Origin: Fluviicola taffensis DSM 16823
Lineage (GTDB): Bacteria; Bacteroidota; Bacteroidia; Flavobacteriales_D; Crocinitomicaceae
Direction of reading: 5' to 3'
Length of the DNA: 64,000 nucleotides
NCBI RefSeq assembly: GCF_000194605.1
Contig: NC_015321.1
Span: forward strand, 248,001 to 312,000
Notes under the pieces: model-generated
Told to the model about the DNA's origin: nothing
What the model saw: the letters and a program-made list of their open reading frames with translations, nothing else
Databases searched by the model: none
Position numbers and translations under genes: made by a program
In this document: piece after piece, positions 27,028-31,747 of the stretch
How the letters are laid out: the number at the start of each line of letters is the position of its first letter
How positions within the stretch are numbered: position 1 is the first letter of the stretch

Positions 27028-27462
27028 TGATTTACTCTAATTTTCATAAATTCAAACGAAACAAAATCAACCATTTAATCGGGTAAACTATCTATTTTAT
27101 TATTTCACTACACGCAATAATAAAACCAAAAACACTTATAAACTTACTGAATACGCTTAAAAAAAATGAATAACTATTTTTTTATAGAAAATGTTCACAT
27201 GATATTTTTTTTTTATTAAATTAGTTTTTCAATAATAAAATTGAAAAACCATTTATTTATAAACCATTAAATCAAAAATCTTCATTTATTAACTATTTAA
27301 ATGTGCGGTCACATGTTTAAAAGTATCCAAATAATATATTGACCGGTATATTACTCGGGTGCGAACGTAGCAATTATTGGTTGCCGAAAAAATTATTGTT
27401 ATATGAAAATAACTGATTTTCAGTTCTTAAAAGAGTAGGCCTATTTTTAAACACTTAATATT
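27028..27462. other. AT-rich leader region before the RiPP locus
   Basis: About 435 bp with no gene found on either strand. Much more AT-rich than its flanks, with long A and T runs. Holds a 10-bp hairpin (27224-27249, GTTTTTCAAT/ATTGAAAAAC), a small ATGTG-cggt-CACAT inverted repeat at 27301, an AACTGA/TCAGTT hairpin at 27411 and a near-consensus -7 box TATTTTTA at 27442-27449. Confidence 0.7.
27224..27249 (+). terminator. Hairpin in AT-rich spacer, possible terminator
   Basis: 10-bp perfect stem with AATAAA loop, about 200 bp after the reductase gene. No T-run follows on the plus strand, so termination is uncertain. Confidence 0.3.
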
Positions 27463-27660
27463 ATGTCAAAGTTCAATAAAATGATTTCAAAAATTGAATC
27501 AAGTGAAATCTCAAAAAAACAAATTAAATCCATGTTAGGGAGTATCCGAGGAGGAGAAGACACAGGTTCTGGAGCTGTAAGTTCAAGATATACCTCAAAC
27601 AGTAATGCTTGTGATGGTACTGCTCTTTGCTTTACCTGTCTTCCTCCAGTAAAGAAATAA
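27463..27660 (+). CDS. Putative RiPP (lanthipeptide-type) precursor peptide
   Basis: 65 residues. The leader (1-31) is charged and helical and ends SMLGSIRGG, the double-Gly form common in Bacteroidota natural-product precursors. The predicted core (32-65) contains nine Ser/Thr (34, 36, 40, 41, 44, 45, 47, 53, 58) and three Cys (50, 56, 59), the latter in NACDGTALCFTCLPP. It lies upstream of a LanM-like synthetase. The Ser/Thr cluster is mostly N-terminal to the Cys residues, as needed for (methyl)lanthionine rings. A strong hairpin follows, likely raising precursor mRNA over the enzymes. Confidence 0.75.
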   Translation: MSKFNKMISKIESSEISKKQIKSMLGSIRGGEDTGSGAVSSRYTSNSNACDGTALCFTCLPPVKK

Positions 27661-27689
27661 TAAACTAGGAAATAAATTCAATATTTTAG

Positions 27690-27720
27690 TAAAGGCGATT
27701 GTAAAATACAATCGCCTTTA
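27690..27720 (+). terminator. Hairpin between precursor and enzymes
   Basis: Perfect 14-bp stem (TAAAGGCGATTGTA and complement) with a 3-nt loop, 30 nt after the precursor stop, followed by a pyrimidine-rich CCTTTCTTTT. Probably a partial terminator or mRNA stabiliser. Confidence 0.65.
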
Positions 27721-27752
27721 CCTTTCTTTTATTAGACTAATTTACGACTTCT

Positions 27753-28856
27753 ATGAATTTCAAAATTTTCGCAATGATTTTCGCTCTCTACTACTTGAAC
27801 ACAACTATTGCTCAAGTAGATAGCCTTTCTCCGAAAATTTCAAATTCTCAGCTAGTTGATTTTGAAATTTCTAAAAATTCAGATCTAAAAGAAGGAATAT
27901 TAAATTTACATTCCTTTATTTCAAAACAGGATACAAGCTTAACAATATGTAAAGACGGAATTGAATATCGAGATTTTATCTTATCTGAATTTTTTCCTGA
28001 GTATTATCCGCTATACTATTTAGAGTATCATTTGCTTAATATACTTCAAATAAATGACACCAAATTTGAAGTTGAGATTCTTAATAAACTTGACTATGAA
28101 AAACTAGGGAATGATTATTGTTTTCAATTTGAAGCAAATTTCATTTATAACGCAATTTTATCTAAAGTAAATAATAAGTGGGTGGTTGATTTATCACTTA
28201 GACATGCTAATTACCAGAAACAAAAAACATCCTTTGGGAATATTTATCACCTAAACAACTTAAATAAAGGTTTTTACAAAGACTATAAGATGTTTTTGAA
28301 AAAAACATCAAAACAATTCCATCTTTCAAAACCGAATGAGAAGCTCAATTACATTATAGGAAATTTTGAAATATTTGGATTTCCATATAGCATGTCAGCC
28401 ACTAATCGTTATTTCAAAAAATTTCATCTGATTGTTAGCAAACATAATATCAGTATAGATAAGCACGAATTCTCACATTATTTTTTTCAGGACTACTCAT
28501 TTGGCTTGTTTTTAAACGAAGGACTTGCTGTATATAATGGGGGGAGTATGGGTATGACATTCACGAACTTCTTGAAGTTTGTAAAAGAAACGTACATTGC
28601 TACCTTTTCAGATGAAGAACAAAAAGTATTAATTGAGAAGCTCCTTATGAATCAGATAGAAGGTGGTTCTTTCTTACCAATTTATTATGCCTGTTCCGGA
28701 TTAATATTGCAAGAGTATTTTAAAAAGAATGGAACCGAACATTTTATAGAATTACCTGAAAATGATTGGAAAATTAAACCTGCAGACTTTTTATCTAAAT
28801 ATTTAGAAGTACCTGCCGATAAACAGGTAAGCTATTTAATTGAATTACTAAAATAA
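27753..28856 (+). CDS. Exported gluzincin-like metalloprotease (peptidase MA-like)
   Basis: 367 residues with a signal peptide (about 1-20, ending TIAQ). The zinc motif is HEFSH (His238, Glu239, His242), and a third ligand Glu256 lies in FLNEGLAVY, the arrangement of peptidase-MA/gluzincin families. The N-terminal 200 residues have no recognised domain. It is located between the RiPP precursor and the LanM-like gene in the same direction, with 27 nt to the latter. It could remove the leader after export, or be an unrelated exported protease that travels with the locus. Confidence 0.7.
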   Translation: MNFKIFAMIFALYYLNTTIAQVDSLSPKISNSQLVDFEISKNSDLKEGILNLHSFISKQDTSLTICKDGIEYRDFILSEFFPEYYPLYYLEYHLLNILQINDTKFEVEILNKLDYEKLGNDYCFQFEANFIYNAILSKVNNKWVVDLSLRHANYQKQKTSFGNIYHLNNLNKGFYKDYKMFLKKTSKQFHLSKPNEKLNYIIGNFEIFGFPYSMSATNRYFKKFHLIVSKHNISIDKHEFSHYFFQDYSFGLFLNEGLAVYNGGSMGMTFTNFLKFVKETYIATFSDEEQKVLIEKLLMNQIEGGSFLPIYYACSGLILQEYFKKNGTEHFIELPENDWKIKPADFLSKYLEVPADKQVSYLIELLK

Positions 28857-28883
28857 AAAATCATCACATCATTAAACACCATT

Positions 28884-31667
28884 ATGTTTGATTTTAATAC
28901 CACCAGCGAATCCATTGACTTTATTCAGAATCTGAATAAGCATATTCTAATAGAAGAGAACCAACAGGTATTCCCTTTTGCGGAAAATAATTTTTATGGG
29001 ATGATATTTCCATTGAAAAGGTACATTACAACTAACCTAAATACAATTATTAAAAAAAAACAAGGAACTGATACAAATTGGGCAAGTTATTCTTCCATAA
29101 CGGAATCATTTTCAAACGACATGTATTCTTATCTCATAACCGAACTCCTGAGAAACACGTTAAAAGCAGAAAAAAAACTTGCATTAGAGCATGCGTTTAT
29201 TGATGAAGCTGATACCCACTATCAGTTTGTTGAATTGACAAATGATTCAGAATGGATTCGATACTTCTTCCAGAAGTATCCAGTACTAGAAACATTAATT
29301 AATCATTTTATTGAAACTCAGCTATTATTTTGCAATACTCTTCTTGAACGCATTACAAACGATATAAAAGAACTCCAAGGATTTTTTCAATTTTCAGGTA
29401 AATTGGAAAATATTGAGCTTTATAAAGGCGATCTACATTGCGGAAATAAATCAGTGTGTAAACTAATTTTCACAGATAGAAATATTTATTATAAGCCACG
29501 TAATTTTAGAAACGATCAAATTCTTATGCAATTGCTGGAAAATGAAGATCTAATTTTGAAAATTCCGCCATTTATTGAAAAAGGTGATTACGGGTATTCT
29601 AAAGATATTTTCAACAGTCAAAATGATGTCCCATCACACAAAAAAACAGAGGATTATTTTTATCAATTAGGTAAAGTAATCAAGTTTATAACATGTAATC
29701 AACTGGAAGATATTATAGGTGAAAACTTAATCTATTCAAATGGGAATTTATTTTTGATTGATTCCGAAAGTATATTCATGCCAAAAATTATTGATGAAAA
29801 CAATCGGTTTCACCAACAATCAAAATTGCTTGAATTATCGGTTGCAGGCACATCTTCCATCCCAAGTAAAATAGGACTTTTTGAATATGATTATTCCTTT
29901 ATACTGCCATCAAAGAGAAGTAAATCCAGAAATATCAATAATGATCAGGAGTTATTCAATTTCATTTTTAAAAAAGAAGTAATCGATACTTATCTGCCTG
30001 ATTTTTATTTGATCGAAAATAGTGAAGGGTACATTGCCTGTATTTATCATTTAATCTCAGGATATAAAGACTATCAAGTAGAAACAAAAACCGACACAAT
30101 CAATCAGATTGATCAAAATATGACGCGTATTATTGTAAGAGATACTGCGAGATATGCTCAATTAATGGATTACTTATATCATCCGGAATTTCTAATCGAT
30201 AAGGAAATTTTCCTGAGGCAACTGGCTGTTTTACTACCTATGAAAGAAGAAAAACTGGCAGATATTAATCGCTCTGAAGTAAATCAAATTCTTAAATTGG
30301 ATATTCCGATGTTCTATCTTTCCAGTGGAAATTTGTATAATGACAGAAAAGAATTAATTATACACGATTTTTACAAAAAAGAAGAGAGGCTTATGAAAGT
30401 CTATGATCATGTATTTAATGAAAAAATTCTATTTTCTAATTTATTAATGCAACTACCTGATAAAGATATTTTTAATAATTTATTCGGAAACGTCAGTAAA
30501 TTAAAAATAACTGAATCCAACCTGATGTCTCAAGTCGTAGATATTATTCAATCTAATATCTATTATAACGAAGTTCCATTAATTTTAAATCCAATTCCAG
30601 ACACAAGTAATTTACAAATTTCAAAGAGATTTTCTGCAACTATTAGCTTAATGAAAACTGGTTTGTATGACGGTACTGATGGGTTATTATTAGCTATTTC
30701 AAACTTAAAAGAAAAAGATAAATCACAGGAATCAAAGCAAGTAATAGAACAACTATCTAAGTTCGGACATTCCGTTTTCAGATCTTCTCTAGAAAATTTA
30801 GGGTTCAGTGATTTTGGTTTGTTTCATTCAGCATCTGCATCTATAATTTCGTTCATTATATATGATATGATTTATATCAAATCCAATAATAATCTTTTAT
30901 TAGAACGATTTATTCAGCAGTTTTCTAACTACTTAAAACAAGAGGAAGACCTCAACTTTTCTTTTGTGGATGGAATTAGCTCAACCATTTTGTTTTTGGT
31001 AAACAATTCTCATTTATTTGAAGATAAAACGAACTCAGAGTTCGAAGATCAGATTAAAGCTACTCTTAATAAATTTTCCCATGTTATCGAAGAAAGAGAT
31101 ATCAATATCTTACGAAAATGGGATATGAGAAGCCAGACTGCTGGTTTTCTTATTTTATTAAACACTCTTGAGAAAAAAAATATTTCAGATAATTTTATAG
31201 CAGCGAAAAAAGCTGAATTAACCAACCAATTGATAAATGACATTGAATTCATTCTAAATAACATTCACACCTTAGATAATAATTATAGCTGGTATACTGG
31301 TTTTTCTGGTATTATTTCTCTTTTGATTTCCCTTGAAATTCCAGAATCGACTAATCTATTGAGTATTTTTTCAGAGAAATCCAGTTTCGAAAATATAAAC
31401 GGCTTTGGACTATCAGGAGGCAGTTTAGGTCTCTTATTAATCAATCAACAATTAGCGGATTTAAATCCGTCGAAATATAATAAGACAGTTAACATGACCT
31501 TTGAAGATCTCTTTCATCTAGATGGTGATATTCATATGAAGTCGATGACTTATTTTGGTTTGTACAATGGGTTATCCGGATTCCTAGCTTATGGGAATGA
31601 CGAAAGTATCGAATTTTTAATCCCCAATAACAAATGGCTCTCCCTTGAAAATTTCGCTCTTAAATAA
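28884..31667 (+). CDS. LanM-like lanthipeptide synthetase with degenerate cyclase
   Basis: 927 residues, normal for LanM. N-terminal DUF4135 dehydratase: GDLHCGNKSV (Asp183, His185), YYKPRNF (Lys204), LEDIIGEN (Asp276, Ile278, Asn281), LIDSESIF (Asp293, Glu295), and RIIVRDT (Arg415, Thr421). By comparison with CylM, only the His of the DxHxxN motif is missing (Ile278). C-terminal LanC-like domain from about 584: seven toroid repeats are recognisable, starting with GLYDGTDG. The zinc motifs WCxG and CHG read WYTG (Tyr804) and LSGG (Ser844-Gly845), and the catalytic His motif is absent. The enzyme probably dehydrates Ser/Thr; cyclisation in the usual zinc-dependent way is unlikely. Confidence 0.85.
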   Translation: MFDFNTTSESIDFIQNLNKHILIEENQQVFPFAENNFYGMIFPLKRYITTNLNTIIKKKQGTDTNWASYSSITESFSNDMYSYLITELLRNTLKAEKKLALEHAFIDEADTHYQFVELTNDSEWIRYFFQKYPVLETLINHFIETQLLFCNTLLERITNDIKELQGFFQFSGKLENIELYKGDLHCGNKSVCKLIFTDRNIYYKPRNFRNDQILMQLLENEDLILKIPPFIEKGDYGYSKDIFNSQNDVPSHKKTEDYFYQLGKVIKFITCNQLEDIIGENLIYSNGNLFLIDSESIFMPKIIDENNRFHQQSKLLELSVAGTSSIPSKIGLFEYDYSFILPSKRSKSRNINNDQELFNFIFKKEVIDTYLPDFYLIENSEGYIACIYHLISGYKDYQVETKTDTINQIDQNMTRIIVRDTARYAQLMDYLYHPEFLIDKEIFLRQLAVLLPMKEEKLADINRSEVNQILKLDIPMFYLSSGNLYNDRKELIIHDFYKKEERLMKVYDHVFNEKILFSNLLMQLPDKDIFNNLFGNVSKLKITESNLMSQVVDIIQSNIYYNEVPLILNPIPDTSNLQISKRFSATISLMKTGLYDGTDGLLLAISNLKEKDKSQESKQVIEQLSKFGHSVFRSSLENLGFSDFGLFHSASASIISFIIYDMIYIKSNNNLLLERFIQQFSNYLKQEEDLNFSFVDGISSTILFLVNNSHLFEDKTNSEFEDQIKATLNKFSHVIEERDINILRKWDMRSQTAGFLILLNTLEKKNISDNFIAAKKAELTNQLINDIEFILNNIHTLDNNYSWYTGFSGIISLLISLEIPESTNLLSIFSEKSSFENINGFGLSGGSLGLLLINQQLADLNPSKYNKTVNMTFEDLFHLDGDIHMKSMTYFGLYNGLSGFLAYGNDESIEFLIPNNKWLSLENFALK

Positions 31668-31747
31668 CACCATATTGAACGAGGTTAATACTTTAATTGA
31701 CTAGAAGAAAACTCAAATTTAAAAAGTATCTAAAGATGATAATCAGA

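Follow-up and report, generated by a model that had tools for sequence, protein, structure and literature searches.

How far lanthipeptide rings depend on a cyclase to form is not settled, and the locus described here bears on it. A window of 64,000 nucleotides from Fluviicola taffensis DSM 16823 (contig NC_015321.1, positions 248,001 to 312,000; coordinates below count from the first letter of this window) carries on its forward strand a gene for P0001, a LanM-like protein in which a DUF4135 dehydratase domain precedes a LanC-like toroid that has lost its catalytic site. What would such an enzyme still do to its peptide? We give somewhat better than an even chance to the reading, drawn from residue comparisons, that P0001 would be a peptide dehydratase of LanM descent, its LanC half a catalytically dead scaffold (a pseudo-cyclase).

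28884..31667, + strand: P0001, LanM-like, 927 residues, frame intact (open reading frame [ORF] translation, domain scans, and comparison with LicM2).
29277..30320, + strand: DUF4135 dehydratase domain, residues 132–479 (profile match).
30504..31664, + strand: LanC-like half, residues 541–927, a predicted toroid with the catalytic site lost (alignments and model).
29715..29717, + strand: Ile278 in place of CylM His349 (by motif; it faces a His in the LicM2 sequence alignment).
30960..30962, + strand: Ser693 at the catalytic Asp position (that of NisC Asp141), which is Asp in 49 of 58 zinc-intact rows.
31131..31133, + strand: Ser750 at the catalytic His position (that of NisC His212), which is His in 53 of 58 zinc-intact rows.
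31293..31295, + strand: Tyr804 replaces the first zinc Cys, with WYTG for WCxG (alignments).
31413..31418, + strand: Ser844-Gly845 replace the zinc Cys-His pair, with SGG for CHG (alignments).

In the multiple alignment, all three zinc ligands and both acid–base residues are gone from the cyclase half. The first-pass annotation of this stretch had described a LanM-like layout with every zinc ligand lost and no His at the catalytic base position; the alignment bears it out, placing Tyr804, Ser844, and Gly845 in the ligand columns and Ser750 in the NisC His212 column. Cys is entirely absent from residues 387–927, which rules out Cys ligands elsewhere in the domain, an objection that the annotation itself had raised. 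The 58 zinc-intact LanMs share 27 conserved positions, of which P0001 keeps none of the five catalytic ones and 16 of the 22 others; judged from the sequences, the residue loss is selective for catalytic positions. NisC and CylM stand outside the alignments, and their residue names were transferred by motif; the roles of NisC Asp141 and His212 are those given in PMC10604976.

The comparison covered 81 other DUF4135 proteins, 73 of them from genome contigs, 7 from Bacteroidota genomes, and 1 from a plasmid. Complete ligands (Cys, Cys, and His or Cys) were found in 58 rows, and 16 had no residues in the two ligand columns; one of the others was cut by the contig end before the second ligand, and six were incomplete or unreadable (L054, L055, L056, L060, L091, and L092), L060 having been read in the wrong frame and being uninformative. 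Alignment A4 used 52 of the 73 loci, with near-duplicate, short, and misframed ones left out, and the earlier tree used 79 of 82 rows. In profile–profile comparison with the zinc-intact panel, the P0001 half together with that of the relative L133 gave 96.8–98% with the same residue pairing, and the P0001 half alone gave 71–75%. A two-sequence alignment agrees on the assignment of Tyr804, the CHG motif falling in a gap. The predicted model of P0001 matches LicM2 and CylM in fold over the whole length (VIA-align, which gives aligned ranges without residue-by-residue superposition).

The DUF4135 match reaches 220.2 bits (E 6.3e-65) and spans profile positions 1–377 of 378. Eight of the nine catalytic residues of CylM are kept, as assigned by motifs that also align with LicM2: D252, H254, K274, D347, N352, D364, R506, and T512 correspond to D183, H185, K204, D276, N281, D293, R415, and T421. 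All four elimination residues (CylM D252, H254, R506, and T512) are among them. At the ninth position, that of His349, 79 of the other 81 rows have His, with Trp in L019 and Cys in L022. The CylM-H349A variant reached nearly full modification after ten hours and kept slow activity, and T512A, at the residue equivalent to the Thr421 present in P0001, stopped elimination (PMC4550811).

As to its class, P0001 has the DUF4135 domain and the LanC-like toroid of a LanM; it lacks the zinc ligands, its score lies below the curated cut-off of TIGR03897 (196.7 versus 304 bits), and its LANC_like match is weak (23.5 bits versus a cut-off of 23.2). Because it also misses a defining feature of each published zinc-less group, as compared below, we file it as LanM-like, probably working like a LanM dehydratase. 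In the host genome, a single contig of 4,633,577 bases, DUF4135 and LANC_like (at E 0.001) match once each, both times in P0001. The suggestion of the annotation that the protein may only dehydrate its peptide fits these results, the dehydratase residues being retained, the catalytic ones of the cyclase gone, and the genome without a second LANC_like protein at E 0.001.

The gene belongs to an islet with a candidate substrate and a companion.

27028..31747, no strand assigned: three-gene islet between genes that neighbor each other in relatives (GC content and synteny).
27463..27660, + strand: putative precursor P0003, 65 residues, with a GG leader, the core EDTGSGAVSSRYTSNSNACDGTALCFTCLPPVKK, Cys50, Cys56, and Cys59, and nine Ser/Thr.
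27689..27721, + strand: 15-bp perfect hairpin then a T-rich stretch, directly after the precursor, presumably a terminator or attenuator.
27753..28856, + strand: companion P0002, 367 residues, with a signal-peptide-like N terminus (by eye), HEFSH at 238–242, and NEG at 255–257, metallopeptidase-like.

Relatives of P0001 were found by a class-level DUF4135 search, which yielded L135, L136, L133, and L109. Together with P0001 they fall on one side of a branch in a dehydratase tree (5 of 68 rows; Shimodaira–Hasegawa-like approximate likelihood ratio test [SH-aLRT] 97), a quick search with long branches and no bootstrap, made without 16 panel rows and without L019 and L022, both of which lack His349. 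The His349 position reads Ile, Ile, Met, Ile, and Ile in P0001, L135, L136, L133, and L109. The full-length members L135 and L136 keep the Cys-Cys-His ligands. In L133 (L133:6639-10575) the ligands are replaced by Asn, Ala, and Asn, an in-frame stop lies between two gene pieces, and the Lys204 equivalent is placed differently in two alignments; this gene may be decaying. L109 is a contig-end fragment. P0001 and L133 have in common the companion-first gene order and the zinc-ligand loss; we do not claim that this loss is shared by descent, with the order within the five unresolved in the tree and L133 interrupted.

Three of the four loci (L135, L136, and L109) have a short, Cys-rich peptide with CDxT, those of L136 and L109 ending their leaders in GG and that of L135 not; no precursor was recognized near L133. 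The cores have in common a C-D-x-T that additional Cys follow. Full-length alignments of P0003 to the L136, L109, and L135 peptides had scores reached by none of 2000 shuffles each, and core-only alignments by 10, 1, and 0 of 2000, respectively; such shuffles control for composition alone, and these peptides had been chosen for sitting beside LanM genes. An HExxH companion of ~380–400 residues with a signal-peptide-like start occurs at L135, L136, and L133, and L109 stops at the contig end. P0002 is related to the L135 companion (8.5e-9) and weakly to that of L133 (0.002), and through the former it is linked to those of L133 and L136. Nothing in Pfam or NCBIfam matched P0002 up to E 1, no solved structure did so better than E 1, and plasmids gave no match; the L136 companion gave only two weak, chance-level Pfam/NCBIfam rows. 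Glu256 of P0002 had been guessed as the third metal ligand, a candidate dropped on finding Leu there in L136.

P0001 had no match at E 1e-10 in 398 other genomes sampled from the order and no close relative in a single-protein scan of genome contigs. DUF4135 was found in 2 of 240 genomes of the host's family, the second being an eCIS_core/DUF4135 protein and not a LanM, in 9 of 395 phylum-sample and 9 of 395 class-sample genomes (three genomes in both), and in 1 of 16 genomes of the order of L133, namely that of L133 itself. No viral contig matched, and plasmid and phage matches were distant. Among the matches listed in the open-licence literature, there was no publication on this gene set.

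Here, we propose how the system may work if P0001 is a dehydratase with a dead toroid. The leader of P0003 would bind P0001, and the kinase-like domain would phosphorylate Ser/Thr residues of the core and eliminate the phosphate to give dehydroalanine and dehydrobutyrine. The empty toroid would only hold the protein together or hold the peptide. Retention of such a toroid is not absurd, because the zinc-less cyclase domain of CcaM is needed for dehydration (PMC10676384). The three core Cys might then add to the dehydro residues without zinc catalysis, remain free, or form a disulfide; all of these are possible, because the core Cys positions match those of the relatives with zinc ligands. A C39 exporter encoded at another site of the genome (~4.55 Mb) would cleave off the GG leader, and outside the cell the peptide would be trimmed or turned over by the secreted HExxH companion. 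A wider proposal, which we hold as tentative and on balance doubtful, is that one branch of an otherwise zinc-keeping Bacteroidia family of ribosomally synthesized and post-translationally modified peptides (RiPPs) dropped the site and kept the toroid, the dehydratase, and the substrate Cys pattern, forming metal-free rings templated by the empty toroid or by the peptide, or exporting a dehydropeptide with free thiols.

Several observations weigh against a dead scaffold. The three Cys of P0003 are placed as in relatives that have the ligands, a hint that rings, or thiols at the least, are still of use and that part of the cyclase function may persist. P0001 is the only intact zinc-less member of the family, which leaves a single gene in support of a stable zinc-less branch. 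Four of the six non-catalytic conserved positions lost from the toroid are Gly, and the LANC_like similarity is so low that early decay stays possible. In the model, the block means of the cyclase half are only ~31–79 in predicted local distance difference test score, and the fold match is partly built in by an input alignment made from LanMs.

Could the toroid close rings through other residues, as class III LanKC domains do? In ThurKC, Ser, Phe, and Asp replace the ligands and the enzyme is active without metal (PMC10604976); Ser693 of P0001 matches by motif ThurKC Ser608 at the Asp141 position, and the 16 retained toroid positions and the Cys pattern of the precursor would suit such a function. 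However, the residues important in ThurKC, its Phe770/Asp771 pair in place of Cys-His and its Asp667 at the His212 position, correspond to Ser844, Gly845, and Ser750, and the cyclase domain of P0001 scores 31.6 bits versus 338.6–364.8 bits in the zinc-poor but well-kept L056, L091, and L092. We consider a metal-free cyclase of this kind unlikely, and much the same holds for decay of an acquired islet that is useless now and whose cyclase half was the first part to go. Decay would agree with the absence of the islet next to its flanking gene in the nine genomes of the genus that were looked at, its want of an exporter, the lost Gly residues, and the ligand-less, stop-interrupted L133; yet the 927-codon frame is intact in DNA of ~30% GC, the precursor and companion frames are intact as well, and both the dehydratase residues and the non-catalytic toroid positions have been retained, the latter selectively.

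That P0001 phosphorylates its peptide and then stops seems quite improbable. The phospeptin maturase EmbM, with a LanM-type dehydration domain, yields a phosphorylated peptide (PMC9259500), and Ile278 is one unusual active-site residue in P0001; EmbM, however, has mutated key residues (PMC9259500), whereas P0001 keeps all those for elimination. There is finally the idea, raised by the annotation, that another protein closes the rings. In class I lanthipeptide systems, dehydration and cyclization are indeed carried out by separate proteins, but with P0001 as the sole LANC_like match of the single-contig, 4.63-Mb genome at E 0.001, the idea is weak and we give it hardly any credence. On the favored reading, a dehydratase with a dead toroid, the annotation "LanM" does not imply thioether rings, and P0001 offers a natural test of the need for metal in ring closure. 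Related enzymes with (L135 and L136) and without (P0001) zinc ligands stand beside related Cys/Ser/Thr-rich peptides, and the contribution of the zinc site is therefore measurable by comparing such natural pairs.

The islet has a GC content of 29.0% (27028–31740) versus 34.8% in the left flank and 37.5% in the right flank. Its flanking genes are adjacent (~50–150 bp apart) in five of nine same-genus genomes; in another two, other ORFs separate them, and in the last two no left gene was seen. Searches of the three islet genes by tblastn gave no match in the corresponding stretch of any of the nine. At the same insertion point, one relative has an 838-residue cation-ATPase-like ORF (by eye; L130:6987-9503) and another has two smaller ORFs (L131:9087-10036); the site may be a recurrent insertion site. 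The stretch 27660–27750 with the hairpin folds at −22.8 kcal/mol, and the hairpin, lying between the precursor and companion genes, might permit excess production of the precursor. No exporter gene lies inside the islet, and a C39 exporter adjoins at L136. The intact C39 exporter of the host lies within another peptide locus (L027, ~4.55 Mb), which also has genes resembling HlyD and TolC (by eye) and a pair of nearly identical precursors. A second similar locus (L028, ~1.14 Mb) has a broken C39 gene; we take both loci to be grasp-with-spasm-like.

Other DUF4135 loci were met in the comparison. L056:5503-8595, L091:5510-8787, and L092:5197-8637 form a second LanM group with none or one of three zinc ligands and high-scoring cyclase domains; they had been considered as relatives of P0001 and were set aside as a group of their own (SH-aLRT 98 in one tree and 94 in the 68-row tree). 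Their GG precursors have common SGECN...SC cores, C39 exporters adjoin, and no YcaO was noticed within ~6 kb (by eye; five neighboring proteins scanned). At L054:1385-8220, two YcaO genes and TfuA neighbor the gene of a DUF4135 protein whose cyclase half is degenerate; the cluster appears to be of dehydrazole or thioamide type. In L023:8389-10788 and L020:8654-10909, an eCIS_core domain is followed by a DUF4135 LanM-type dehydratase/kinase domain, without a LANC_like match, and the L020 protein is near a contractile-injection tape-measure gene; these proteins have the appearance of injected cargo derived from a lanthipeptide dehydratase. Standalone DUF4135 dehydratases of 475–650 residues without a cyclase half are found in Bacteroidota (L014, L016, L017, L034, L039, L041, L072, and L103), and several short NHLP-like precursor ORFs adjoin L014, L016, and L017 (by eye).

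Among known systems, CylM and LicM2 resemble P0001 in domain order, whole-length fold, eight of nine dehydratase residues, and a nearby GG-leader precursor, and differ in having the zinc ligands, the catalytic Asp and His, and His349, whereas the TIGR03897 score of P0001 is under the cut-off. LanMbC/CcaM enzymes of dehydrazole pathways likewise dehydrate and fuse DUF4135 to a zinc-less cyclase domain; the CcaM domain, however, is described as class III-type, no thioether ring is among the listed product features, and the P0001 locus has an HExxH companion instead (PMC10676384). YcaO, the partner of LanMbC, had no match in the host genome at E 0.001. ThurKC also has a ligand-less LanC-like toroid with Ser at the Asp141 position, but with the Phe/Asp pair that P0001 lacks, and its N-terminal half is a lyase plus a Ser/Thr kinase, unlike the LanM dehydratase of P0001 (PMC10604976). 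The CA_C0082 group is LanM-like with the zinc motif gone; its members have 670–728 residues and a truncated dehydratase without catalytic residues, mostly beside agr genes (PMC10301443), whereas the DUF4135 domain of P0001 is near full length. EmbM shares a LanM-type dehydration domain without a working cyclase, but as a single functional domain, where P0001 has both halves (PMC9259500). The family of L135, L136, L133, and L109 consists of His349-less LanMs with CDxT peptides and HExxH companions at three of four loci each. A distinct class II-like RiPP system, as the annotation had supposed, thus stands as to the family, the related precursors, and the companion, and not as to zinc loss, which its two full-length other members do not have. 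The novelty implied there was too strong: zinc-less LanM-type enzymes are already in print (PMC10676384 and PMC10301443), and P0001 is a variant, not a new kind.
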